A DNA stretch of 42,886 nucleotides from Treponemataceae bacterium (GTDB lineage Bacteria > Spirochaetota > Spirochaetia > Treponematales > Treponemataceae), in contig JAKSTR010000018.1 in assembly GCA_024402495.1 (NCBI GenBank), forward strand, positions 1 through 42,886. The letters run 5' to 3'. The position numbers and the translations under genes were made by a program. The notes under the pieces are model-generated. The model did no database searches. It was not told the origin of the DNA and saw only the letters and a list, made by a program, of their open reading frames with translations. Shown here in pieces: positions 11,440 to 41,767 of this stretch (its first letter is position 1; the number at the start of each line of letters is the position of its first letter).

Positions 11440-12219
11440 TCAGCCCAGAGCGAAGAAAGAAAAAATTGCTGAAAAATCAGCTTTCAGGCACAGCTTGTAA
11501 ATTATCCACAATACCAGCAGGTGACCGGGATAAAAGCCGTAAAACATATATTGAATCGGTTTGCTGTGCGGCCCCTGCTTGCCTTTGTAAAGCCAGATAA
11601 TTGGCAGCGCCAGCACCGCCAGCCCCTGCTGAACAAGTTCAATATTGCGTCCAAAAATTTCAACCGGGTAAACCTGCCCGCCAAACCCCAAATAGTGAAT
11701 TGCAACCATTGCCGCAAACTGCAACGCAAAATTGTACCATTTTCTGCCCCTGAAAAAATAAAAGGAAAAAATTGTAAGAATGCCAAAGGCAAAATAATCA
11801 AACATCAAAACCGTGCCAGCCAGCGCGCCGCCTGCACCAATTAAAAGAATGAAAAGAATTTCCTGCCAGCGCTTTTTGGTTTTTGCCCATTCAAAACCTT
11901 TCAGGCACAAAAGTCCAAGCAGAAATGTCCACAAAACGTTCTGGTGAAAAGGGTAAAAAAATGCGCCGCTGTAAATTAAATCAAATGGCACTTCCGAAAT
12001 AAGGGCAAAAATCAGCATTCGCAGAACGTATTTTTTAAAGTTTCTGGTATAAAAAAAGCCTTCCACGCACATAAATGCGAAAATTGGAAAAGCCAGCCGC
12101 CCGATGCAGGTTAGCCAGCGCTGGCTGCCAAAAAATGTTGCCCATAAATGGTCTAAAAGCATAAAAGCCATTGCCAGAATGTGCAGTGTAAACGAAGAAA
12201 TTTCAAATTTGGTTTTCAT
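11440..12219 (-). CDS. TraX-family membrane protein (paralogue 1)
   Basis: 259 residues with about 7-8 hydrophobic helices and the TraX signature at the N-terminus: MLLDHLW, then CIGRLAFPIFAFMCVEGFFYTRN. TraX of the F plasmid N-acetylates pilin. Chromosomal homologues such as this have no assigned substrate and belong to a broader acyltransferase-like membrane family. No conjugation gene is present. A second copy with the same architecture lies at 41006-41767. The ATG has no Shine-Dalgarno; instead TATAAT lies 10-15 bases upstream, implying a leader of about 3 bases. Confidence 0.82.
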   Translation of the reverse strand: MKTKFEISSFTLHILAMAFMLLDHLWATFFGSQRWLTCIGRLAFPIFAFMCVEGFFYTRNFKKYVLRMLIFALISEVPFDLIYSGAFFYPFHQNVLWTFLLGLLCLKGFEWAKTKKRWQEILFILLIGAGGALAGTVLMFDYFAFGILTIFSFYFFRGRKWYNFALQFAAMVAIHYLGFGGQVYPVEIFGRNIELVQQGLAVLALPIIWLYKGKQGPHSKPIQYMFYGFYPGHLLVLWIIYKLCLKADFSAIFSFFALG

Positions 12220-14782: not shown

Positions 14783-15009
14783 CAGCTTTCGGTTTCTTCC
14801 TGCTGGTCGCCGGGGGCATATTCCAGAATGTCGCCGGGCTGGCAGTTAAGGGCGCTGCAAATTGCGTCCAGCGTAGAAAACCTGATGGCGCTTATTTTGC
14901 CGGTTTTCATTTTGGAAAGGTTTACGTTTGTTATGCCAACTTTTTCGCTCAGTTCGTTTAGTGAAATTTTGCGGTCTGCCATTACGCGGTCTAATCTCAT
15001 TACAATCAT
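14782..15009 (-). CDS. Small Xre-family HTH regulator paired with DUF2975
   Basis: 75 residues, nearly all one Cro/C1-type helix-turn-helix: LDRVMADRKISLNELSEKVG (helices 1-2) and ITNVNLSKMKTGK (recognition helix), then STLDAICSALNCQPGDILEY, a hallmark of the YozG/HTH_26 group. Its ATG overlaps the upstream gene's TGA (ATGA, 15006-15009), and GGAAGG in that gene serves as ribosome binding site, so translation is coupled. Such regulators commonly accompany a DUF2975 membrane protein and probably control their own operon. The inverted repeat at 15732-15772 is a candidate operator. Confidence 0.87.
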   Translation of the reverse strand: MIVMRLDRVMADRKISLNELSEKVGITNVNLSKMKTGKISAIRFSTLDAICSALNCQPGDILEYAPGDQQEETES

Positions 15010-15581
15010 ACAAGGCCTTCCACGTCTTTTTCCAGGTTTTCGCCGTATGCAAAAATTTCGCTTAAAGCCAGAACGACAATGCCGGTAATAATTTTTGACA
15101 TATCAACAGACATTTCTGCAATTTCCATGCCGATGACTGGTCTGAAAATTGCGCTTATGATGGTCTGGACAACCGGAATTAAAATTAAGAAAATGCCGAT
15201 TTCGCGAACCATGCGCGTAATGTCTTTCTGGAAAGGTGTTTCGCCTTTTGCAAACCATGTTTTGCCTTTCATTGTGCGCAGTATTAAGTTTACGTTGCGG
15301 AAAATCATTGTGTAGCAAAGGTTTGCAAGAATGCCTGAAATCAGAATTGCAAGAACGCCGGGGCGCAGATATTCGCCGTTGCGGATAACCTGAACGCAGA
15401 ATCCGGCAGATTTCAGTTCGTTGTTTGTTTCGCTTGCCATTGCCGTAACCCAGTTCTGCACTGTTGCCGGTTTTGCAAAATGCAGAATTGTAGCTATAAA
15501 ATAGGCGGCTGCTACTGCCAGAAAGAAGAATTCAAAAACCAGACTTAAAATTTCTGTTGCTTTGGTAAGTTTTCTGTTCAT
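15006..15581 (-). CDS. DUF2975 four-helix membrane protein
   Basis: 191 residues with four predicted membrane helices (about 13-33, 75-98, 125-150, 160-178). The layout and the tail IITGIVVLALSEIFAYGENLEKDVEGLV are typical of DUF2975, whose biochemical role is unknown. It is the first gene of a two-gene operon with the Xre regulator. The ATG at 15581 follows AGGGA at a spacing of 7. By context it may be a membrane sensor or target linked to the regulator, but this is inference. Confidence 0.82.
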   Translation of the reverse strand: MNRKLTKATEILSLVFEFFFLAVAAAYFIATILHFAKPATVQNWVTAMASETNNELKSAGFCVQVIRNGEYLRPGVLAILISGILANLCYTMIFRNVNLILRTMKGKTWFAKGETPFQKDITRMVREIGIFLILIPVVQTIISAIFRPVIGMEIAEMSVDMSKIITGIVVLALSEIFAYGENLEKDVEGLV

Positions 15582-15772: not shown

Positions 15773-15778
15773 GTAAAA

Positions 15779-15815
15779 AAATACCGGCAGAATACAGCGA
15801 TACCTGCCGGTATTT
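15779..15815 (-). terminator. Terminator of trxA
   Basis: AAATACCGGCAG / CTGCCGGTATTT perfect 12-base arms around 13 bases, with T runs on either strand. It lies 9 bases past the trxA stop. Confidence 0.85.
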
Positions 15816-15823
15816 TTTTGCGT

Positions 15824-16135
15824 TTACAGGTTGCTGTCGATAAAGCCTTTTAAGGTTTCTTTTGGCATAAAGCCCGCCCTTGCTGCAACCGGCTTGCCGT
15901 TTTTAATAATTGCCAGATACGGAATGCTTACAATGCCGAATTCCTGTGCAATGTTCGGGCACTGGTCAACATCAACGTTATAAAAGCTAACTTTTCCGGC
16001 ATATTCTTCAGAAACCTGTTCCACGATTGGCGCAATCATTTTGCACGGACCGCACCATGTTGCCGAAAAATCTACAAATGCAACGTTCTGTTCTTTTGCT
16101 TCTGTAAAATCTTTTTCTGTCAGTTTCTTTACCAT
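15824..16135 (-). CDS. trxA: Thioredoxin
   Basis: A 103-residue cytoplasmic thioredoxin with the classical active site WCGPCKM (C28, C31), the cis-Pro segment SIPYLAI, and the usual length. It reduces protein disulfides. AAGGAG 7 bases upstream of the ATG is a good ribosome binding site. It is the second gene of an operon with the reductase-like flavoprotein, 39 bases downstream of it, so the two are presumed redox partners. Confidence 0.95.
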   Translation of the reverse strand: MVKKLTEKDFTEAKEQNVAFVDFSATWCGPCKMIAPIVEQVSEEYAGKVSFYNVDVDQCPNIAQEFGIVSIPYLAIIKNGKPVAARAGFMPKETLKGFIDSNL

Positions 16136-16174: not shown

Positions 16175-17065
16175 TCAGTTTTTAGCCTGTTGCAAAGCCT
16201 GTTTTTGTGCATCAAGATATGTGCAGGCGCTGTGGGCTGCAATGTTGCCTTCTCCGGCGGCTTTTGCATACTGAAAAGGTTTTCCAGTGCAGTCGCCGCA
16301 GGCAAAGCAGCCGGCAATATTTGTCTGCATGTTTTTATCAACTGTTATAAAACCGTCACCGCACGCAAGACCGGGCACCAGAACCTGCAAGTCTACGTTT
16401 TGGCGCAAAATAAAAACGCCGTCAATTTCAAATGCCGAACTGGTGCAGACCATTTTTTGCGCTTTCTGCGAACCTTCTATTTTTTCAATTTTTTCTTCTA
16501 TTAAATGTACGTTTTGCGGCAGGCTGAAACCGTGCTGGTCTGGCGCAAAATCGGCAACAAGCAGAACTTTCTGGGCAATTTCTGCAAGATATTTTATTTC
16601 TTCTATGCTTTCTGTGCCCTGCGCAACAACGCCGATGGTTTTGCCCTTGTAAAAAAAGCCGTCGCAGGTGGCGCAATAACTTACGCCGCGACCTAAAAAT
16701 TCTTTTTCGCCGGGAATGGTTTGGGGCGCGTTTACGCCGGTGGCAAGAATAAGGCTTTTTGCCTGATATGGCTGGCTTTGTTTTGTTCCGCTGATTGAAA
16801 AATAATCGCCCATTGCGTAAATCATTTTGGCGCTGTCGCTGGTTATGCCAATTTCCATTTGGGCTAAGTGTTCTGTAAAAGCTTTTTGCAGTTTTTCGCC
16901 GCTTATTGCAGGCAAGCCGGGGTAATTTTGAATTAGATGGGCTTTCTGTATTTTGGGGCTTAAAGATTCCTGACCCAGAAAAAGAATGTTTTTATTGCGC
17001 AGTTTTAATGTCAGCGCCGCACTGATGCCCGCAGGCCCAGTGCCAATAATTGCAACGTCGTACAT
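16175..17065 (-). CDS. trxB: Thioredoxin-reductase-like flavoprotein with atypical nucleotide site
   Basis: 296 residues with the low-Mr thioredoxin reductase fold: FAD-binding GTGPAG (8-13), ATG at 109-111, redox-active CATC (C131, C134) and the C-terminal FAD block GCFACGDCTGKPFQYAKAAGEG. The second Rossmann domain is unusual: the NADPH loop normally GGGDSA reads AQGTES, and the HRR segment that holds the NADPH 2'-phosphate is absent (LLVADFAPD). The enzyme may use another donor, as in ferredoxin-dependent flavin thioredoxin reductases, or NADH. Its operon with trxA supports a thioredoxin role. No Shine-Dalgarno is visible; TATTCT sits exactly at -12 to -7 of the ATG. Confidence 0.85.
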   Translation of the reverse strand: MYDVAIIGTGPAGISAALTLKLRNKNILFLGQESLSPKIQKAHLIQNYPGLPAISGEKLQKAFTEHLAQMEIGITSDSAKMIYAMGDYFSISGTKQSQPYQAKSLILATGVNAPQTIPGEKEFLGRGVSYCATCDGFFYKGKTIGVVAQGTESIEEIKYLAEIAQKVLLVADFAPDQHGFSLPQNVHLIEEKIEKIEGSQKAQKMVCTSSAFEIDGVFILRQNVDLQVLVPGLACGDGFITVDKNMQTNIAGCFACGDCTGKPFQYAKAAGEGNIAAHSACTYLDAQKQALQQAKN

Positions 17066-17327: not shown

Positions 17328-19682
17328 ATGAAACATTTTTCTGCAAAAGCATTTTTTAGCAAAACGGCACAAATATTAGCTTTGTGCTTATTGTGGCTGG
17401 GGCTTTCTAGCTTTGGCGGTATGGAAGATATTTTTGAAGTTGGGTCTGGCAACGGGCAGCCTTCCGGGGCAGGGCAGTCTGCCGGTATTGATTTTACAGT
17501 AAGCAATAAAAGTAATTCCGGTGCAAATTACCAGATTAACGTAAAAAACCAGAGCGGCAAAGAAATTAACGCATGGTCTTTAACGGTTCCGGTTGCAAAC
17601 GAAAAATACGGCAACGGCAATTTGCCGCAGGTCTGGAACTGCATGGTTTACTTTTCAAACGGCAATCTGGTTTTTAATTCTGACAGCGTAAGCGGAACTG
17701 TAAAAAATGCCGCTACCAATACCAGCGCCGGATTTTGGGCTGCAACCGATTCGCTTAATTTTGACAAAGCATATTTCAATATGGTTTTTGGCGATGGAAC
17801 GAGTTATTCGGCATATTGCAATGCACAGAACGCAAATGCAGGCGGTACAACCGGCAACAGTACAAACACAAGCACACAGAAACCGGCTGAACAAACCGTT
17901 TTTGTAGATTTTACTCCAAGCAACTATAACGATGCCGGACAGAATTATCAGGTAAACATTGCCAATACCGGCAGCAAAACCGTTAACAGCTGGTACATTT
18001 ATTTGCCGGTTATAAACCAGAAATACAATTCTGGCAATCTGCCTTCTTTCTGGAACTGTTCTGCAAGCTATAAAGACGGCTACGTGGTTTTAACCAGCAG
18101 CAATTACAGCGGCACGGTAAAAGGCGGCGAAAAAAACAGTCAGGCTGGAATGTGGGTTTTGCACAAAGGTCTGGATTTTGAAAAAGCAACTTTTATTGCC
18201 AATTTTGCAGACGGCACAAACTATAAAGGCAACTGTTCGGGGCTTACCGCAAGTTCAGCTGGCAGCACAGGTTCTACCGGCAGCACAAATACGAATAACA
18301 GTACCACGAACAATGGCGTAAACGCTGCAATGCAAATCGGTGCAAGCAACAGTACCGAATGGGGACAGAATTACCAGATTAGCATAAAAAACCAGAGCGG
18401 CAAAAATATCCGTTCATGGGTTTTGAACGTGCCTGTATTAAACGGAAAATACAACGCGGGCACATTGCCTTCGTACTGGAACTGCAGCGCAAGCTTCAGC
18501 AACAATATGGTTGTTCTTAAATCTGACGGCAACAGCGGCAGCATTAAAAACGGCGTAACATACAGCGAGGCTGGTATCTGGGCTTTGCACAATGCCCTGG
18601 ATTTCAGCAAGGCTTATTATCAGTTTACTTTTGGCGACGGTTCAACTTTTACCGGAAACATTAACGGTTTTTCTGATATTTCCGGGGTTGCTGGCGGCAG
18701 CAGCAGCGCAGGTTCAGCCGGCACAAATACAGGCGCTGGTACGCAAACCGTGCCTGTAATTACCGAAGGTTCGGTTTTAAACCACGGCAAACTGAAAGTT
18801 AAAGGCACGCAAATAGTAGACAAAAACGGACACACCTTTTTTATGCGTGGAGTTTCGACCCACGGCATTAACTGGGATTGCGGTGCGCCGTTTGTAAACA
18901 AAGATGCTTTCAGGGAATTAAGCGACAACTGGGGCGTAAATGCTGTGCGTCTGGCAATGTACACCGCCGAATATAACGGTTACTGTAGCGGCGGCAACAA
19001 AGCCGAGCTTAAAGCTCTGGTAGAAAAAGGCGTTAATGCCGCTACCGAACTGGGAATGTACGTTATTATTGACTGGCATATTTTAAGCGATTCTAACCCG
19101 AACACGAATAAAGAAAGCGCAAAAGAATTTTTTGCATATATGGCACAGAAATATGCAAATTACGACAACGTTCTTTACGAAATTTGCAACGAACCGAACG
19201 GAAACACTACATGGAAAGAAATTAAAGCCTATGCGGAAGAAATTATTCCTGTTATCCGCCAGTACAGCAAAGATGCAATAATTATTGTTGGTACACCGAA
19301 CTGGTGCCAGGACGTAGATATTGCAAGCAAGAATCCTGTAAAAGGTTATGAAAATATTATGTACAGCGTGCATTTTTATGCTGCAACCCACAAAAACTCG
19401 TTCCGCAAAAAGGTAAAAACAGCCCTTAGCGCCGGGCTGCCAATTTTGTGTACCGAATACGGTTTAAGTCCTGCAAGCGGCGACGGTCAACTGGATTTGG
19501 ATTCTGCAAAAACCTGGCTGGATATGTTTGATGCAAACGGAATAAGTTATTTCTGCTGGAGTTTTGGCAATAAAGGCGAAAGTTCGGCGCTGCTGAAAAG
19601 CGGTACCAAAAACTGGCAGCCAAAAGACAGAAGCGAAGCCGGAAACTGGGTAGTTAAACAGTATATTCAGCGCAACAAATAA
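17328..19682 (+). CDS. Secreted GH5 cellulase with three N-terminal carbohydrate-binding-like modules
   Basis: 784 residues. A signal peptide (about 1-30) precedes three homologous modules of about 110 residues at 53-164, 191-304 and 333-447, separated by Gly/Ser/Thr/Asn linkers. Each has the pattern N-Y-Q-(I/V)-(N/S)-(I/V) ... W ... WNC ... SG(T/S)(V/I)K ... G-(F/M/I)-W ... FxDG and resembles family-2-type cellulose-binding modules; the exact CBM family is uncertain. The GH5 domain spans about 485-780: acid/base E622 in CNEPNG and nucleophile E710 in CTEYG, with WH at 583-584 and HFYA at 682-685, close to endoglucanases of subfamily 2. It should cut internal beta-1,4-glucan bonds outside the cell. 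A terminator follows at once. A start without Shine-Dalgarno suggests a leaderless transcript. Confidence 0.9.
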   Translation: MKHFSAKAFFSKTAQILALCLLWLGLSSFGGMEDIFEVGSGNGQPSGAGQSAGIDFTVSNKSNSGANYQINVKNQSGKEINAWSLTVPVANEKYGNGNLPQVWNCMVYFSNGNLVFNSDSVSGTVKNAATNTSAGFWAATDSLNFDKAYFNMVFGDGTSYSAYCNAQNANAGGTTGNSTNTSTQKPAEQTVFVDFTPSNYNDAGQNYQVNIANTGSKTVNSWYIYLPVINQKYNSGNLPSFWNCSASYKDGYVVLTSSNYSGTVKGGEKNSQAGMWVLHKGLDFEKATFIANFADGTNYKGNCSGLTASSAGSTGSTGSTNTNNSTTNNGVNAAMQIGASNSTEWGQNYQISIKNQSGKNIRSWVLNVPVLNGKYNAGTLPSYWNCSASFSNNMVVLKSDGNSGSIKNGVTYSEAGIWALHNALDFSKAYYQFTFGDGSTFTGNINGFSDISGVAGGSSSAGSAGTNTGAGTQTVPVITEGSVLNHGKLKVKGTQIVDKNGHTFFMRGVSTHGINWDCGAPFVNKDAFRELSDNWGVNAVRLAMYTAEYNGYCSGGNKAELKALVEKGVNAATELGMYVIIDWHILSDSNPNTNKESAKEFFAYMAQKYANYDNVLYEICNEPNGNTTWKEIKAYAEEIIPVIRQYSKDAIIIVGTPNWCQDVDIASKNPVKGYENIMYSVHFYAATHKNSFRKKVKTALSAGLPILCTEYGLSPASGDGQLDLDSAKTWLDMFDANGISYFCWSFGNKGESSALLKSGTKNWQPKDRSEAGNWVVKQYIQRNK

Positions 19683-31063: not shown

Positions 31064-32500
31064 TTATTTGCTGCTTTTGTCTTTTATGTATTTGCCCCAA
31101 ACCGTGGTGGCGTTTTCTGTTGGCGCGGCAGTTTGCGACGACGCGCGGTTTATTAAATACAAATCGCTGGTTTTTACCCAGCCCGAAAACTGGTCGTCGT
31201 ATTTTATCAGCGCCCAATCGCCGCGATTCTTTTTTACGGTTATGCGGCTGCCGCTTTTTAAGCTTGTTGCGCTTAAAGAATCTTCGTCCGGTACGGTGCA
31301 GATATTTCCGCCTGCAAAAACCGCGCCCTGCGGCAAAAGTTTTGCGCCGTCGTAAATGCAGAATGCGCCCAGACAGAAGGCAACAAGCAGAAACAGAACG
31401 CCGCGGATAATTTTATGCCAGTGAAGCATCAAAAGGGCGCAAAGCAGAAAAAGTGCAAAAATTCCGCAGAAAAGCAAAAGCTGAATTGCAGATTTTTCGT
31501 CCGGGCTGAAATCTATGCCCATTTCGGCTTCTTTTTCCAGTCGCTTCTGGCGGCTGTAGCTTGTTAAAAGCGACCATCGTTCTGCAGAACGCAATGCGGC
31601 AAGCTGCTGCAAATCTTCTTCCGCGCTGAAAACCTGCGGTAAGTTTTCTTCTGGCTGGCTAAAATCTTCGGTTTGGGTAAAGGCACTTGCAAAAATACCG
31701 CCTGCATTTGCGCCGCCGCCTGTTCCGTACCCCGAATCTGCCGGTTTTTTATATTCTTCAACAAAAACGGTCTGCCCGGTTACGGCAAACTGGCATTCTT
31801 CGCCGTTGGTGCCGGTTAAATGCACCGTGCCGCCCGGCAACGAAACTTCGCCTGCAAAAAGCGGCGTAAAGTTGTAAACCGCGCAAAGTTCGCCTTTTTC
31901 CGTAATTGCATCGCCAAATGGTGCAAAATCGCTGGTAATTTCTTCATCCAGCTCCAGAATCGCGGTTTCGTTCAGCGGAAAATCCGCATTTTCAATATGT
32001 TCTACAAAACTTGCACGCAGTTCAATTTGCGTGGTTTTGCCCTGCAAAAACGGTTCTTCGCCCGTCGCCCAGAAAACATTCGGCGGCATTGCCCGCGGAT
32101 TATCGCTTACGGTAACGGTGCCCAGCTGAACAACGTGTTTTTTCTGCCCGGTTTTTACCGTAATCGGCGGCATTTCGTATTCGCCTGCGGAATTAAATAT
32201 GAAAACTGCTTCTATTAAAGTGTCTGTCTGCTTGCCGCTGCTTTGCGCCGCCTTGCGTATGGAAATCCGTTTTGCGTCGCCTTTGGGTTCTTCAAAAATA
32301 TAGGTAACTTCTCGCGGCGTGTGGTTCGGTACGCAAAGCAAAAAAGTGCATTCGCTGCCTTTTACTGCGCCTTCAAGGTTTTGAATGACGTAAGGTTCGC
32401 TTAAGGCTGAAGAATTTTGGGCAAAAGAACTGGCAAAAACGCCCAAAAATACTGCTAATAATCCAAAATATCTGAATTTTCCTGCTGCTGGCTTTTCCAT
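31064..32500 (-). CDS. BatD-like exported protein with C-terminal SH3 domain
   Basis: 478 residues. A signal peptide (about 10-28, ending FASSFAQ) leads to a periplasmic beta-sandwich region (about 35-260) like the BatD/oxygen-tolerance family. Then come a linker rich in Gly/Glu, a charged stretch with KRLEKEAEMG, two adjacent hydrophobic segments (about 343-365 and 369-388) and a C-terminal bacterial SH3-like domain (about 395-455: NICTVPDEDSLSATSLKSGSRITVKKNRGDW.. GWVKTSDLY). The SH3 end is BatE-like, so this protein may combine BatD and BatE features. It overlaps the upstream BatB gene by 46 bases and precedes the Smr gene by 10. Confidence 0.75.
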   Translation of the reverse strand: MEKPAAGKFRYFGLLAVFLGVFASSFAQNSSALSEPYVIQNLEGAVKGSECTFLLCVPNHTPREVTYIFEEPKGDAKRISIRKAAQSSGKQTDTLIEAVFIFNSAGEYEMPPITVKTGQKKHVVQLGTVTVSDNPRAMPPNVFWATGEEPFLQGKTTQIELRASFVEHIENADFPLNETAILELDEEITSDFAPFGDAITEKGELCAVYNFTPLFAGEVSLPGGTVHLTGTNGEECQFAVTGQTVFVEEYKKPADSGYGTGGGANAGGIFASAFTQTEDFSQPEENLPQVFSAEEDLQQLAALRSAERWSLLTSYSRQKRLEKEAEMGIDFSPDEKSAIQLLLFCGIFALFLLCALLMLHWHKIIRGVLFLLVAFCLGAFCIYDGAKLLPQGAVFAGGNICTVPDEDSLSATSLKSGSRITVKKNRGDWALIKYDDQFSGWVKTSDLYLINRASSQTAAPTENATTVWGKYIKDKSSK

Positions 32501-34137
32501 TGGTTCTGTTCGTTCTCCATCATCATCGAAAAAATAAGGTCTTGCAATCCGGAATTTTGCTGTTCGCTTGTTTGCGTGCTCTGGGTCTGGTTTTGTCCCT
32601 GTACATTCTGCAGCGCAAGTTCCTGCATCGAAAGTTCCAGATTTATTTTTGCGTTTAAGTTTGTGCTGTCAATTAAAAGTGCCTGCTTAAAATTGTCCGC
32701 GGCTTTTTCAAATTCGGCATTCTGGTAGGCAATTATGCCCTGATTGTAAAACGAACCGAACTGCAAGCCCGGATTCGCCTCGGCGTTCAGCTTGTTAAAG
32801 CGGTTTATCGCCGCCGCGCTTTCGTTTTGCATTAGATATGTTGCGGCAAGCCCAAAGTTTGCGTAATTTTCGCCGTTATCATCGCCGTTTTGGGCGGCAG
32901 TCTGCTGGGCTTCCAGAAAACTTGCGGCGGCTTCGGTGTAGTCGCTGCGCTGCCAGCAAAGCACGCCGTTAAAAACGTGGCTTAAAACCTGTGTTTTGGG
33001 CGTGCAAGACGTAAACAAAATTGAAAAAAGTAAAAGGCTTAAAGTATTTTTTGCTTTTTTATTTGAAGAAAAATGCAAATTGCTCGCCGCATATCCGAAA
33101 ACAAAAAACAGCAGCGCCAGAAACGCAAAAAATCCGTAATGCGGCACGCTCTGGTTCTGGTAAACCGTAAAATTTTCTTCTGCAAAAACGTCCGGCGCTG
33201 TCTTATTCTGGGCGGCAAACAGATTGTTAAGGTTTTGCTTTGGCTTAATCTGGTTAAGCACTTTAAAAGCAGAACCGGCTTCCTGCGCGTTAATATATGT
33301 AATTTTGCAGAAATTTTCGGTGCCGGCGTTTAAGTTTTTAAAAACCGAAACATTTTTTGCAAAATCTTTTACGGTTTCTTCTAGTTTTTCTTCGCGCAAG
33401 GCGGTTTTTGCCGTGCGTTCGTTATCTCCGGTAATAATTTCGCTTTCTTCGGCTGCGCCAAAACCCAGAATTACTACGCTCGTTCCTGCATCGTAGGCTT
33501 GCTGCAGGGCGCTTTTCAGGCTGTTCAGGGTTTCGTCGCCGTCGGTAAAAAGCACTATCGTATGATTTTTGCTGCTGTTTGCAGGAAAATTTTGCAGGGC
33601 GCACGTAACGCCGGCGGCTAAATCCGTACCCGGCGCAGAAAGCAGTCCCGGCGACAAATTTGCCAGAAGGCTGCTGATAAGTCCAAAATCTTCGGTCAGC
33701 GGAACGGCAAGAACGCCGCTGCCTTTTGCCAGTACCGCCGAAACCGTGCTGCCTTCCAGCCGCTTTAAAAGTTCTGCGGCGTAAAGGCTTGCGGCGCCAA
33801 GGCGCGTACTGCTGCCGGGCATATCTTTGGCAAGCATGCTGTAAGAAATGTCGAAAACAAAACAGACTGCGTTGCCGTTTTTTTGTACGCTTACTTTTTT
33901 GCTGCCCCAGCTTGGTCCGGCGGCGGCAATTACCAGAAACGCAAAGCCTAGCGACCAGAACAAAAGGCGCAGTACGAAGCGTTTTTGAAAACTTACGGCG
34001 AAACTCTGCTTTTTGCCGTAAGTTTTGTTTTCGCCAAAAAGGGCAATAAACTGCCTGAAGCGAAAAATTACAAAAATCGCCGCAAAAGGAATAAGGCACA
34101 ATGCGTATAAAATGTAAGGATTTTCAAATTTAATCAT
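32455..34137 (-). CDS. BatB/BatC-like fusion: VWA domain plus TPR repeats
   Basis: 560 residues. Membrane helices near 8-26 and 55-73 flank the entry to a periplasm- or cytoplasm-facing von Willebrand A domain with an intact MIDAS: D96-x-S98-x-S100 in FDISYSM and FTDGDET later. A hydrophobic segment (about 345-370) and a short Cys-containing hydrophobic stretch (FTSC) precede four or so TPR units (about 390-515: LSHVFNGVLCWQRSDYTEAAASF ... SFYNQGIIAYQNAEFEKAADNF). Elsewhere BatB and BatC are separate; here they are joined. It starts 4 bases after the BatA stop. The likely role is a scaffold in the MoxR-Bat envelope complex. Confidence 0.82.
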   Translation of the reverse strand: MIKFENPYILYALCLIPFAAIFVIFRFRQFIALFGENKTYGKKQSFAVSFQKRFVLRLLFWSLGFAFLVIAAAGPSWGSKKVSVQKNGNAVCFVFDISYSMLAKDMPGSSTRLGAASLYAAELLKRLEGSTVSAVLAKGSGVLAVPLTEDFGLISSLLANLSPGLLSAPGTDLAAGVTCALQNFPANSSKNHTIVLFTDGDETLNSLKSALQQAYDAGTSVVILGFGAAEESEIITGDNERTAKTALREEKLEETVKDFAKNVSVFKNLNAGTENFCKITYINAQEAGSAFKVLNQIKPKQNLNNLFAAQNKTAPDVFAEENFTVYQNQSVPHYGFFAFLALLFFVFGYAASNLHFSSNKKAKNTLSLLLFSILFTSCTPKTQVLSHVFNGVLCWQRSDYTEAAASFLEAQQTAAQNGDDNGENYANFGLAATYLMQNESAAAINRFNKLNAEANPGLQFGSFYNQGIIAYQNAEFEKAADNFKQALLIDSTNLNAKINLELSMQELALQNVQGQNQTQSTQTSEQQNSGLQDLIFSMMMENEQNQWKSQQQENSDILDY

Positions 34138-34141
34138 TTTT

Positions 34142-35140
34142 TCAAATTTCCTTCAGGTAAACACGGCGCAAAAGCCAGCACAAACTGAAAAGTGCAAGGG
34201 CGCAAAGCAAAAAATAAGAATACAGCGGCTTGTTTATGTTTTCCACGCGGTATGTCTGCTGAACATTCTGCTCGGCGGCAACGTTTTTTAAAACATTGGC
34301 AAGCAGAACCGTATTTTCGGCACTAAAATACGCGCCGCCGCCTGCAACCGCAAGCTTAAAAAGCTGGTTTTCGTCAAAACCGGAATCCAGAAAGCCGCTG
34401 ATATTTTTGCCGGTTTTTGGGTCTGTGTATTCAACCTGCACTTTTCCCCGCGTGCCAATGCCCAAAACGTAAAGCGCAACCGAATTCTGCTTTGCAAGGC
34501 TTGCGGCGGTTTGCGGGTGAATTGAACCTGCGTTGTTTTCGCCGTCCGTAATAAGGACTATGCATTTTTTAGGCGCTTTAGAACTTGTGCAGTGCACCAG
34601 CGCGGTGGCAAGCCCCGTACCGATTGCCGTTCCGTCGCCCAGTTCGCCAATTTGCAGACCGTGCAGGCGGCTTAAAAAATAGTTCTGGTCTAAAGTAACC
34701 GGCACAACCAGCGCGGCTTCCTGCGCCATTGCAACCAGCCCGAAACTTGCGCCCTGTATCTGGTTTGTAAACTGTTCGATGCACTGTTTTGCCGCGTCCA
34801 GCCGGTGACTGCCCTGCATGTCTTTCGCCGCCATGGAAGGGCTTGTGTCTATTACAAAAATAATTTCTGCACCTTTTGACGTAAAAACTTTTTTTTGCGT
34901 AGACAGAACGGGCTTGGTTAAGGCAAAAATCAAGCAGATTAGGGCAAAAACGCCGCATGTTTTGCTGAAAACTTCTATAAAACTGCTGAAATGCGCCTTG
35001 TATTCAAACGGCTTGCCCTGCCAGTCGGCTAAAATTAAGGGAAGGCTTGGCTTTTGCAGTAAACCGGCGCGGCGCAAAATGAATTTAAGAGGAAAAATCA
35101 GAAGAAGAAAAAGAGCCGGCAAATTGTCAAATCGTAACAT
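34142..35140 (-). CDS. BatA-like VWA-domain membrane protein
   Basis: 332 residues: two N-terminal membrane helices (about 7-23, 60-78), a VWA domain with MIDAS D98-x-S100-x-S102 (VIDTSPSM), LITDGENNAGS and GIGTRGKVQVEY, and a C-terminal helix (about 308-326). This N- and C-terminal helix arrangement is standard for BatA. It starts inside the end of the preceding gene (14-base overlap). VWA proteins of this cluster are expected to be substrates or adaptors of the MoxR ATPase. The Borrelia counterpart cluster (bb0170-bb0176) contains VWA proteins in the same order. Confidence 0.87.
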   Translation of the reverse strand: MLRFDNLPALFLLLIFPLKFILRRAGLLQKPSLPLILADWQGKPFEYKAHFSSFIEVFSKTCGVFALICLIFALTKPVLSTQKKVFTSKGAEIIFVIDTSPSMAAKDMQGSHRLDAAKQCIEQFTNQIQGASFGLVAMAQEAALVVPVTLDQNYFLSRLHGLQIGELGDGTAIGTGLATALVHCTSSKAPKKCIVLITDGENNAGSIHPQTAASLAKQNSVALYVLGIGTRGKVQVEYTDPKTGKNISGFLDSGFDENQLFKLAVAGGGAYFSAENTVLLANVLKNVAAEQNVQQTYRVENINKPLYSYFLLCALALFSLCWLLRRVYLKEI

Positions 35141-36008
35141 TTTCAGCCTCGTTTTCTAAAATATTCAGGGCGGTGGCAAGTTTTAAGCCCAAATCTTTGT
35201 TTTCGCCTTCTTTTAGGCACGCATTTTGACCTTGTGCAAAACGCAGCTGGTCGCAGCGCTGCAAAACCGGCAGAAAATCGGCAATACCTTGCCTGTAAAA
35301 ATCGCCAAAGTTCTGGTTTAAAAGCTGAGGAATTTCAAAAGTGGCGGCGCTGCAAAAGGGCAGACCAAAGCGTTTCTGCAAATAAACGCGGAAAGCATTT
35401 ACAAGTCTGGTCGCGGCTTCCGCCTGATTTGTATATTTGCCTTTTGTAAAAATGCGGATTTGCTTAACCATTCTGCGGTAATTTCTGGAACGCCGCAAAT
35501 TAACGGTTAAATTATCAAAAAATGTCCTGATTTTCTTAAAACGCAAAAGCAGAACCGTAAAAACGGTAAAAGCCGCCATAACAGAAGCAACGCCTGCGTA
35601 AATAAGATAGCTTGTTCCGGGAATAAGCCGGGGCGGTGCAGGTGGTGCAAGCTGGCTTGCGTTTGTTTCCTGGGCAACGCTGCGTATAAATACCGGCGAA
35701 ACTGTTACCATGAACGAAGAACCGTCGGAATTTTGCGTGTTTTCACCAAACGCAATCGTGCCAAAATCCAGTTCGCCGGCTTTCCACGGTATAAAATCAA
35801 TTGAAATTGCGGCGTTACCGTTAGCGTTTTCAAAATGCATCTGTTTAATGGTAAAAAACGGCGAATTGTTAAGGTTTTTTACGGCCTCGTCACTTTCAGA
35901 AAAATCGCAAATAAAATTATTCATTTCAGCTGGCGAAGCAAACCTGAAAACAAGCTGGGCTTTTTCGCCAACGGTAACATTTTGCGGCGTTAAACTAAAT
36001 GCGCTCAT
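35127..36008 (-). CDS. Membrane protein of the bat operon (DUF4381-position / BB0174-like)
   Basis: 293 residues: an N-terminal beta-rich domain (about 1-120, starting SLTPQNVTVGEKAQLVF) that has no preceding signal peptide in this reading, a Pro-rich linker, one membrane helix (about 145-168), then a basic helical cytoplasmic part (about 175-280) containing ATRLVNAFRVYLQKRFG, which resembles the DUF4381/DUF4129 helical tails. It occupies the slot between DUF58 and BatA used by such proteins in other clusters. Start and stop overlap neighbours (TGATG with the DUF58 gene). Specific function unknown. A start further upstream cannot be excluded. Confidence 0.7.
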   Translation of the reverse strand: MSAFSLTPQNVTVGEKAQLVFRFASPAEMNNFICDFSESDEAVKNLNNSPFFTIKQMHFENANGNAAISIDFIPWKAGELDFGTIAFGENTQNSDGSSFMVTVSPVFIRSVAQETNASQLAPPAPPRLIPGTSYLIYAGVASVMAAFTVFTVLLLRFKKIRTFFDNLTVNLRRSRNYRRMVKQIRIFTKGKYTNQAEAATRLVNAFRVYLQKRFGLPFCSAATFEIPQLLNQNFGDFYRQGIADFLPVLQRCDQLRFAQGQNACLKEGENKDLGLKLATALNILENEAENVTI

Positions 36009-36922
36009 CAGCGTTTTTCCTTTGCGCTAAAAAAACGTTCCAAAACTTGCGCCGGGTCGTCTTTTGTGCTTAGGTTAATTGAAAAAATACCGCGTTTTGC
36101 GCACATATTGGAAAAACGTTCGCTGCGGTCTTTGCCGCTTTTTTTCCATTCGCGCAAAAACGCCGCAGAAAACAGCGGAAAATTGCGTTTTATTTTAGAT
36201 TCCGGGTCTTGAAACGAAAAATACCCGGCTTGGGGCAGTTCCGTATCGCTCGGGTCGGTAATGCGCAGTGCCAGCACGTCGTGTTTTGCGGCAAGATGTG
36301 CAAGGTGCTGTTCATAGCCCGCGCTTCTAAAATCCGAAATTATTACAACCAGCGACCGGTTTTTTAAAAGCCGGTAAGCGCCCTGCAAAGCACCGGCAAG
36401 CGCCGTTCCCTTTGTCTGGCTATGCTGGCTGTTGTCCAGCTGCTGCAAAAGGGTCATAAGCTGCATTTGCCCGGCTTTTGGGCTGGAAGAAAATGTAATT
36501 TCACCGTCAAAAATTGCCATGCCCAAAGGGCTGTTTATCTGGTTTGCGGCAAAAGCCAGCAGGGCGGCGGCTTCTTTTGCGGTTTCAAAACGGTTTTTGC
36601 TTAAAAATCCGCTTTGCATTGATTCAGAATTATCTACAAGCAGAAAAACCACAAGTTCACGGTTTTCTTCAAAAAGTTTTACGTAAGGTTTGCCCATGCG
36701 CGCGGTTACGTTCCAGTCAATTGAGCGAATGTCGTCACCGGGCAAATAATCCCTGACGCCGGTAAATTCAATTCCGTGGCCTTTAAACATAGAGCGGAAA
36801 GAGCCTGAACGCATTCCTTCCGCAATGGAAAAAGCAGAAAGCTTTAGGCGGCTGGCGCGTTGAACAAGGCTTTTGTAACTGTCTGGCATTGGCGCGTTTT
36901 GCGCAGTCTGGGCAATCTGCAT
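36008..36922 (-). CDS. DUF58 protein of the MoxR/bat operon
   Basis: 304 residues with the DUF58 core FKGHGIEFTGVRDYLPGDDIRSIDWNVTAR...PYVKLFEENRE (about 47-89) and a degenerate VWA-like fold with DNSES (D97, S99, S101) followed by IFDGEITFSS and VVIISDFRS. DUF58 proteins are encoded next to MoxR ATPases and probably bridge the ATPase to its membrane partners. No membrane segment. The gene begins 5 bases after moxR and shares one base with the next gene, so translation is coupled. No independent ribosome binding site. Confidence 0.9.
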   Translation of the reverse strand: MQIAQTAQNAPMPDSYKSLVQRASRLKLSAFSIAEGMRSGSFRSMFKGHGIEFTGVRDYLPGDDIRSIDWNVTARMGKPYVKLFEENRELVVFLLVDNSESMQSGFLSKNRFETAKEAAALLAFAANQINSPLGMAIFDGEITFSSSPKAGQMQLMTLLQQLDNSQHSQTKGTALAGALQGAYRLLKNRSLVVIISDFRSAGYEQHLAHLAAKHDVLALRITDPSDTELPQAGYFSFQDPESKIKRNFPLFSAAFLREWKKSGKDRSERFSNMCAKRGIFSINLSTKDDPAQVLERFFSAKEKR

Positions 36923-36927
36923 GGCAA

Positions 36928-37935
36928 TTACGGCACTGGCAAAAGCGAAAGAATTTTTGCAATTATGTCATCGGCGTTTAAACCGTCGGCAGCGGCTTCG
37001 TAAGAAAGCACAAGGCGGTGGCGCAATACAGCCGGCGCAAGTTTTTTTACGTCGTCCGGCAAAACATAAGAACGGCCGTCAAACATGGCGTTTACTTTTG
37101 CGCATTTTTGCAGTGCAATACCGGCACGCGGCGAAGCACCAAAGGTGATGTAGCGCAGAATGTCGTTGCGGCCTTTGCCTTTTCCGTTTTCGGCTGCTGT
37201 ATTTGCGTTTTGCCGGGTAACATTCAAAATTGAAACGATGTACTGAACTATTTTTTCGTCACATTCTACCTTCGGCAGGGCGGCTTTTAATTCTTCCAGC
37301 AGTGCCGGGTTAAAAACCTGATTTACTGGCAGGCTGTTGATTTCGCCTGCGGAATTGCTGCGCCTGATGATTTCGGCTTCTTCCTGCGGCGTAGGGTATT
37401 TTACCAGAAGTTTCAGCAGAAAGCGGTCAAGCTCGGCTTCCGGCAGGCTGTAAGTTCCTTCCTGTTCAATCGGGTTTTGGGTTGCAAGAACAAAAAAAGG
37501 TTTTGGCAGCGGATAGGTTTTTTCGCCGATGGTAACCTGTTTTTCTGCCATCGCTTCTAAAAGCGCAGACTGAACTTTTGCCGGCGCGCGGTTAATTTCA
37601 TCTGCAAGAACAAGGTTTGCAAAAACCGGACCGCGGCGTACTGCAAAAGTTCCTTTCGCCTGTTCGTAAACCAAAGTTCCGCTAACGTCTGCCGGCAAAA
37701 GATCTGGCGTAAACTGAATGCGCTTAAAATCAAGCGCCGACATATCGGCAAAGGTTTTTACTGCCAGAGTTTTGGCAAGACCCGGCACGCCTTCCAGCAA
37801 GACGTGTCCGCCGGCAATCATCGCCATTAAAATGCCGTCAATAATCTCCGTCTGACCGACTACGCGTTTGGCGGCTTCGGCGCGGCAGGCTTCTACCGTT
37901 TGCCGGCATTTTGCAAAAATATCAGAATTATCCAA
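36928..37935 (-). CDS. moxR: MoxR-family AAA+ ATPase
   Basis: 335 residues, the usual MoxR length. Walker A is GVPGLAKT (49-56), Walker B LVLADE (108-113) followed by INRAPAKVQSALLEAM, the sensor-1 region is FVLATQNPIEQEGTY and the C-terminal lid has LRYITFGASPRAG. MoxR ATPases act as chaperones that mature or insert metal cofactors and protein complexes. The gene leads the six-gene operon moxR-DUF58-membrane protein-batA-batB/C-batD, with smr behind it. Translation starts at TTG, with AGAGGT 5 bases upstream. Confidence 0.93.
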   Translation of the reverse strand: MDNSDIFAKCRQTVEACRAEAAKRVVGQTEIIDGILMAMIAGGHVLLEGVPGLAKTLAVKTFADMSALDFKRIQFTPDLLPADVSGTLVYEQAKGTFAVRRGPVFANLVLADEINRAPAKVQSALLEAMAEKQVTIGEKTYPLPKPFFVLATQNPIEQEGTYSLPEAELDRFLLKLLVKYPTPQEEAEIIRRSNSAGEINSLPVNQVFNPALLEELKAALPKVECDEKIVQYIVSILNVTRQNANTAAENGKGKGRNDILRYITFGASPRAGIALQKCAKVNAMFDGRSYVLPDDVKKLAPAVLRHRLVLSYEAAADGLNADDIIAKILSLLPVP

Positions 37936-41005: not shown

Positions 41006-41767
41006 TTATGCGCCGATTAGTACGCCGGTGTTGCCGTGCAGCGCAATGCGTATAATGCCGCAAATTACCAGATGCAGCGGATAATAAATATAGAAAAACC
41101 ATTTCATGCCTTTCCATTTGCCGCGCTGACCGTTGTAGTTTGCCATCAGCGGAAATACCAGAATGACTCCCAGCTGAATAAGTCCGTAAACTTTATCAAT
41201 GAACAGAAAGTAAACGATTACATAAAGCAGTACCCATTTCATCATGTTGAAAACCTGTTTGTTCAGGTTGCCGCGGTTGTAGTAAATGTCCACAATCGCA
41301 AGAACGGCAATGCTGCTCCAGTCGGCACAGAAAGCCAGTATTGTTGCGCCCCATACTACGAGCACTTTCTGCCAGTGTTTCAGGTTGAAATACCGCTGGT
41401 CTGTAAGGGTAAGGGCAAGCACGCCGATAAAAAGCGCCCATATTACGCTGGTCTGGTTAAAAACCGTGGTTTTAAAAGGCACAAATGGAATGCCGAATGC
41501 AAAATTGTATGCAAAATGCGAAATTACTGCAAAAATTCCCAGCCGCAAAAGATAGGCTTTTATGTTTTTTGTGTAAAAATAGCCTTCGGCAACCATAAAC
41601 CAGAAAGTAGGTGCCGCAATTCGTCCTATTATGTGCAGGCAAATTATCCACCATGTTTTGGGAAAATTTGGAAAAATTACGCATATCAGATGGTCTAATG
41701 TCATTGCGGCGATGGCGATAAGCTTTAACTGATTGCCGTTCAGACCTTTGGTTTTTTCTTCACTCAT
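41006..41767 (-). CDS. TraX-family membrane protein (paralogue 2)
   Basis: 253 residues with about eight hydrophobic helices. The start resembles paralogue 1 at 11440: LKLIAIAAMTLDHLICVIF, then IIGRIAAPTFWFMVAEGYFYTKNIKAYLLRLGIFAVISHFAYN (compare [43 protein letters not shown]). Family TraX, whose only known activity is F-pilin N-acetylation; here function unknown. It has a regular ribosome binding site (GGAGGC 6 bases from the ATG), unlike paralogue 1. Monocistronic. Confidence 0.84.
   Translation of the reverse strand: MSEEKTKGLNGNQLKLIAIAAMTLDHLICVIFPNFPKTWWIICLHIIGRIAAPTFWFMVAEGYFYTKNIKAYLLRLGIFAVISHFAYNFAFGIPFVPFKTTVFNQTSVIWALFIGVLALTLTDQRYFNLKHWQKVLVVWGATILAFCADWSSIAVLAIVDIYYNRGNLNKQVFNMMKWVLLYVIVYFLFIDKVYGLIQLGVILVFPLMANYNGQRGKWKGMKWFFYIYYPLHLVICGIIRIALHGNTGVLIGA

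Follow-up and report, generated by a model that had tools for sequence, protein, structure and literature searches.

Ferredoxin-dependent flavin thioredoxin reductases (FFTRs) are homodimers that are reduced by ferredoxin, are unable to use NADPH and carry a disulfide domain that swings between the flavin and thioredoxin (excerpts of PMC12796991 and PMC8469568). The characterised FFTRs are likewise described as ferredoxin-reduced in the excerpted text of PMC9025218. For the enzyme of Gloeobacter violaceus (PDB 5J60 and 6XTF), an FAD potential of -448 mV is given, which suits ferredoxin and not NADPH (PMC12796991, in excerpt). As far as their excerpts go, the FFTR papers describe clostridia and cyanobacteria (PMC10880999, PMC12796991, PMC8469568, PMC9025218). 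The clostridial enzymes include the C. acetobutylicum FFTRs (6GNA and 6GNC; thioredoxin complex 6GND), of which CaFFTR2 is described without a C-terminal Trp tail (PMC8469568, excerpt), and TrxB1 and TrxB4 of C. difficile, where FFTRs are encoded in the trxA1B1 and trxA2-trxB4 operons (PMC10880999, excerpt). The enzyme family, the motif loss, the mechanism, the partnership with trxA and the coexistence with a canonical NTR are thus already known.

Here, we describe a related gene from a Treponemataceae bacterium. The window, i.e., the whole stretch of DNA that was analysed (42,886 nucleotides), contains a reductase ORF that starts with ATG, is terminated by a stop codon and lies upstream of trxA (Table 1). 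Kinship to the ferredoxin-linked reductases of clostridia had been suggested for it in an earlier note on this DNA, and sequence, tree and predicted structure all support membership in the clostridial FFTR family. With a probability of about 0.87, the gene encodes an FFTR that would recharge TrxA from reduced ferredoxin, where the donor, the domain swing and the reduction of TrxA are carried over from the characterised FFTRs.

Table 1. Features of the reductase-trxA locus (window coordinates).
Feature	Position	Strand	Basis
FFTR-type thioredoxin reductase gene, 296 aa	16175..17065	(-)	ORF; PDB relatives; tree; model
FAD-binding GTGPAG, residues 8-13	17027..17044	(-)	alignment
Redox-active CATC, residues 131-134	16664..16675	(-)	alignment
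AQGTES, residues 148-153, replacing the NADPH-binding GGGDSA loop	16607..16624	(-)	alignment
Residues 171-177, position of HRRxxxR in NTRs; zero Arg/His	16535..16555	(-)	alignment
trxA, thioredoxin of 103 aa, WCGPC	15824..16135	(-)	ORF; TIGR01068 107.7 bits (cut-off 96.8)
Inverted repeat, perfect over 16 bp and with A/T tracts, immediately 3' of trxA	15775..15819	(.)	repeat search

The earlier note had described the FAD motifs and the CATC site as intact, the GGGDSA loop as replaced by AQGTES and the HRR phosphate-binding segment as absent, and the alignment bears out all of this. The two intact motifs and the C-terminal GDCTGKPFQ segment fall in conserved columns, and ADFAPD is read where NTRs have HRRxxxR. 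The gene product shares with the C. acetobutylicum and C. difficile enzymes the FAD motif, CATC, the loss of GxGxxA and HRR, a trxA neighbour, a coexisting NTR and, by prediction, the open domain arrangement. It also has no C-terminal Trp tail, as in CaFFTR2, and its translation contains no Trp at all. Unlike the clostridial FFTRs, it has AQGTES instead of GYNKEA or GYTKEA in the loop, its trxA is located downstream of the reductase gene, its host is a spirochaete and its identity to the characterised C. acetobutylicum chains is only 43-45%. The Gloeobacter FFTR has in common with it the absent NADPH site, the CxxC and a domain arrangement similar to the modeled one. However, the tail whose Trp stacks on the flavin of the partner in the cyanobacterial enzyme is missing here, and the distance in sequence is far greater.

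In a phmmer search of the PDB, the closest relatives are the C. acetobutylicum FFTRs 6gna, 6gnc and 6gnd (251, 250 and 247 bits; E 1.5e-73 to 3.7e-72). The best NTR reaches 138 bits, the Gloeobacter FFTR 113 bits and the Desulfovibrio TRi 95.8 bits. Against the NCBIfam model of thioredoxin-disulfide reductase (TIGR01292), the protein scores 201.4 bits, below the cut-off of 343.45. Together with the loss of GxGxxA and HRRxxxR, this rules out that the protein is a canonical NTR. The phylogeny against FFTR and NTR clades that the earlier note had proposed as a check agrees, placing the protein with the clostridial FFTRs and outside the NTR clade. The IQ-TREE analysis comprised 75 rows, namely five PDB chains and 70 of 111 loci. 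Beforehand, four loci had been removed as near-identical, and 37 of the 80 named ones had been dropped under a fixed every-second rule, from which three near loci were exempted. The NTR rows split off with a support of 100/99, and the protein lies within a 62-row FFTR clade (99/93), within a 46-row subclade that contains both CaFFTRs and has uneven support (87/99), and in a group of 15 rows, the rest of which are all from Bacillota (99/94). Its end branch is long (0.7). The known FFTRs in the tree are clostridial, the comparison with the Gloeobacter FFTR being confined to score and structure.

Sister to the FFTR clade, the tree contains a second atypical group of thioredoxin reductases from the same bacterial family (eight loci, L023-L030). 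Six of the eight keep GxGxx[AG], and HRR is changed to T[DN]G in this group, which is possibly a distinct type of thioredoxin reductase.

Structure prediction of the second Rossmann domain, likewise proposed beforehand, yields a folded domain, and the two domains of the model are in an FFTR-like open arrangement. The AlphaFold model, based on a 40-sequence alignment, has a pLDDT of 94.4 and a pTM of 0.85. In Foldseek, the top six places are taken by 6gnc, 6gna and four 6gnd chains, whose rmsd is 2.4-3.2 A across the entire chain. For canonical NTRs, the full-chain deviation is about 10-16 A because the two domains are positioned differently. As a control, the NTR from the same genome was modeled and matches several NTR crystal structures at 1.8-2.6 A, although this model is less confident (pLDDT 84.3) and rests on eight sequences instead of 40. 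Since this NTR is modeled as an NTR, the open arrangement belongs to the reductase and not to the method alone, the difference in alignment depth notwithstanding. The reductase is thus predicted to adopt the open FFTR arrangement, with the CxxC far from the flavin.

The VIA-align comparison gives Z scores of 35.8, 35.4 and 35.2 for the CaFFTR entries and 27.1 (4.2 A) for the Gloeobacter FFTR. Tied with the latter is the next non-FFTR fold match, the Desulfovibrio TRi (5nii; Z 26.6, 5.3 A), so an atypical reductase of the TRi kind has to be considered, as has a diflavin DDOR. TRi falls behind the clostridial FFTRs both in sequence (95.8 versus 251 bits) and in fold (Z 26.6 versus 35). DDORs are described, in the excerpted text of PMC9025218, as being without the thioredoxin-binding GR/KG and FF motifs, whereas the reductase has both: the alignment shows GRG (residues 125-127) before CATC and FF (137-138) after it, the thioredoxin-binding motifs that are named there. 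A TRi-like or DDOR-like identity is accordingly very improbable, and assignment to the FFTRs is preferred.

In one and the same alignment, all five NTR rows keep both GxGxx[AG] and HRR, whereas in the FFTR clade, HRR is kept in none and GxGxx[AG] in three of 133 rows (the 133 include 12 duplicates of loci that are already represented). These three rows, and a second Rossmann-like domain that is still folded in the model, would be compatible with an NAD(P)H-dependent reductase that has an unusual nucleotide site and uses NADPH or NADH at the remodelled loop. Both nucleotide motifs are lost in the reductase, though, and tree and model group it with enzymes that are described as unable to use NADPH (PMC12796991, excerpt). 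We consider NAD(P)H dependence very unlikely.

In the preferred FFTR reading, a 2[4Fe-4S] ferredoxin would be reduced by pyruvate:ferredoxin oxidoreductase (PFOR) or hydrogenase and would donate electrons singly to the FAD of the reductase. The disulfide domain, i.e., the former NADPH domain that has lost its nucleotide site, would swing in, the reduced FAD would reduce the CATC disulfide, and after the domain has swung out, the CATC dithiol would reduce the WCGPC of TrxA. The genome encodes a porCDAB-like PFOR gene set (L145), a 2[4Fe-4S] ferredoxin of 56 aa (NF058577, 84.2 bits; cut-off 65), two Fe-hydrogenase matches ([FeFe]-hydrogenase) and numerous Fer4 proteins, an HdrABC-like cluster among them. 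Hence, reduced ferredoxin should be available. The same Fer4 proteins and HdrABC-like cluster, and the lack of a ferredoxin gene among those ORFs of the window that were scanned, would also fit an enzyme of the FFTR class with a different donor, such as flavodoxin or an Fe-S flavoenzyme that hands over electrons directly. Against such a donor stand the free 2[4Fe-4S] ferredoxin of the genome and the description of characterised FFTRs as ferredoxin-reduced (excerpts of PMC12796991 and PMC9025218), which leave it little probability. Ferredoxin is thus the favoured donor.

The trxA gene follows the reductase gene on the same strand after 39 bp, as expected from the operon that had been noted before, and TrxA is the probable substrate of the adjoining reductase. 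The inverted repeat 3' of trxA is probably the terminator of this two-gene unit. Its 13-nt loop exceeds the limit of the standard terminator scan, which therefore missed it; that scan found no excess of terminators at the locus (four versus a shuffle mean of 4.1), and a promoter scan no excess of promoter signals (three versus 3.3 by chance). Proximity to trxA is recurrent in the FFTR clade. Of the 80 named loci, 30 have a trxA gene on the strand of the reductase gene at a distance of no more than 300 bp, downstream in 19 cases and upstream in 11; in the remaining three of the 33 named trxA matches, the distance is 399 to 1861 bp. By the same criterion, trxA is close to the FFTR gene in four of the 21 loci of the bacterial family from a first search. 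The wider count covers FFTR loci from 40 of the 48 FFTR-bearing family genomes and gives a nearby trxA in nine of these 40, with G090 counted once though present as L004 and L159. On its other side, trxA adjoins a membrane-like ORF of 191 aa (15006-15581, minus strand) without a Pfam or NCBIfam match. This ORF was not found in any of the seven other genomes of the genus, and the surrounding stretch may thus be a species-specific insertion.

A separate canonical NTR (L002, contig C46) is encoded in the same genome. It shares with the FFTR the two-domain fold, CATC and the FAD site, and the two are 32% identical over 238 aa. Unlike the FFTR, it keeps GGGDAA and HRRETLR, and its phmmer scores against the PDB are inverted, an NTR being matched at 269 bits and an FFTR at 126. 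In this organism, the FFTR therefore adds a second route instead of replacing the NTR, and it need not be essential. By analogy with the characterised enzymes, thioredoxin could be recharged from two electron pools in this genome.

Apart from TrxA, just one PF00085 thioredoxin was detected in the genome, a C-terminal thioredoxin domain (WCAPC) fused in frame to a diguanylate cyclase (GGDEF; L112:1495-2961, minus strand, corresponding to G000:C112:10546-12009). In several genomes of the genus, the two halves are adjoining separate ORFs (e.g., G048:C111, G062:C18, G013:C9), so the fusion may have arisen recently or may reflect an assembly error. Two insulated thiol lines can be imagined, one in which ferredoxin, FFTR and TrxA serve house-keeping and one in which NADPH and NTR serve the other thioredoxin. 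Through the diguanylate cyclase part of the latter, c-di-GMP signalling could then be informed of the NADPH status, but we regard this arrangement as unlikely.

The less expected part is the patchy presence of FFTRs in these spirochaetes. The family of the window has FFTR-level matches in 48 of 274 genomes, which belong to four of 20 genera; the seven other genomes in the genus of the window have none. When the phylum was sampled evenly, 16 of 392 genomes had such a match, all 16 from the same family. Literature searches returned no report of a spirochaete FFTR among the matches listed, while the phylum map of non-NTRs in PMC10880999 may already mark spirochaetes. On the tree, spirochaete FFTRs interleave with those of Bacillota, amounting to six or more switches between the two groups, and this pattern suggests several transfers. 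A single spirochaete FFTR clade is rejected by an AU test that was chosen after the tree was seen and run on a quick tree (p 0.0067). Repeated transfer of the FFTR gene is the simplest reading.

Among the 20 FFTR genomes other than that of the window, six were chosen for showing one match each (G135, G090, G127, G140, G118, and G116). No second close thioredoxin reductase was found in them, as the only match to the NTR query above 50 bits is the FFTR. The FFTR may be the only thioredoxin reductase in these six genomes, and their thioredoxin pool may thus depend on ferredoxin and not on NADPH, which is a testable statement on spirochaete redox physiology. In two genomes from the genus of the window (G013, 95% complete, and G041), no FFTR and no close NTR were detected, the query with the NTR of the window's genome remaining below 50 bits.

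The genome of the window comprises 2.97 Mb in 202 contigs (97.34% complete, 0.09% contaminated). A foreign origin of the contig was ruled out: the VWA gene at 34142-35140 has a counterpart of 50-54% identity in each of the other seven congeneric genomes, in line with a contig that belongs to this genus, and the GC content is even across the locus.

Elsewhere in the window, MoxR-type AAA, DUF58, VWA and TPR proteins, one of which is conserved throughout the genus, are encoded in a cluster on the minus strand (31064-37935), which we take to be an aerotolerance or Bat-like set. A GH5 cellulase is encoded on the plus strand (17328-19682), and its N-terminal half resembles, by eye, three similar repeats. 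The 43-kb window also contains two TraX-family genes, both on the minus strand (11440-12219 and 41006-41767).
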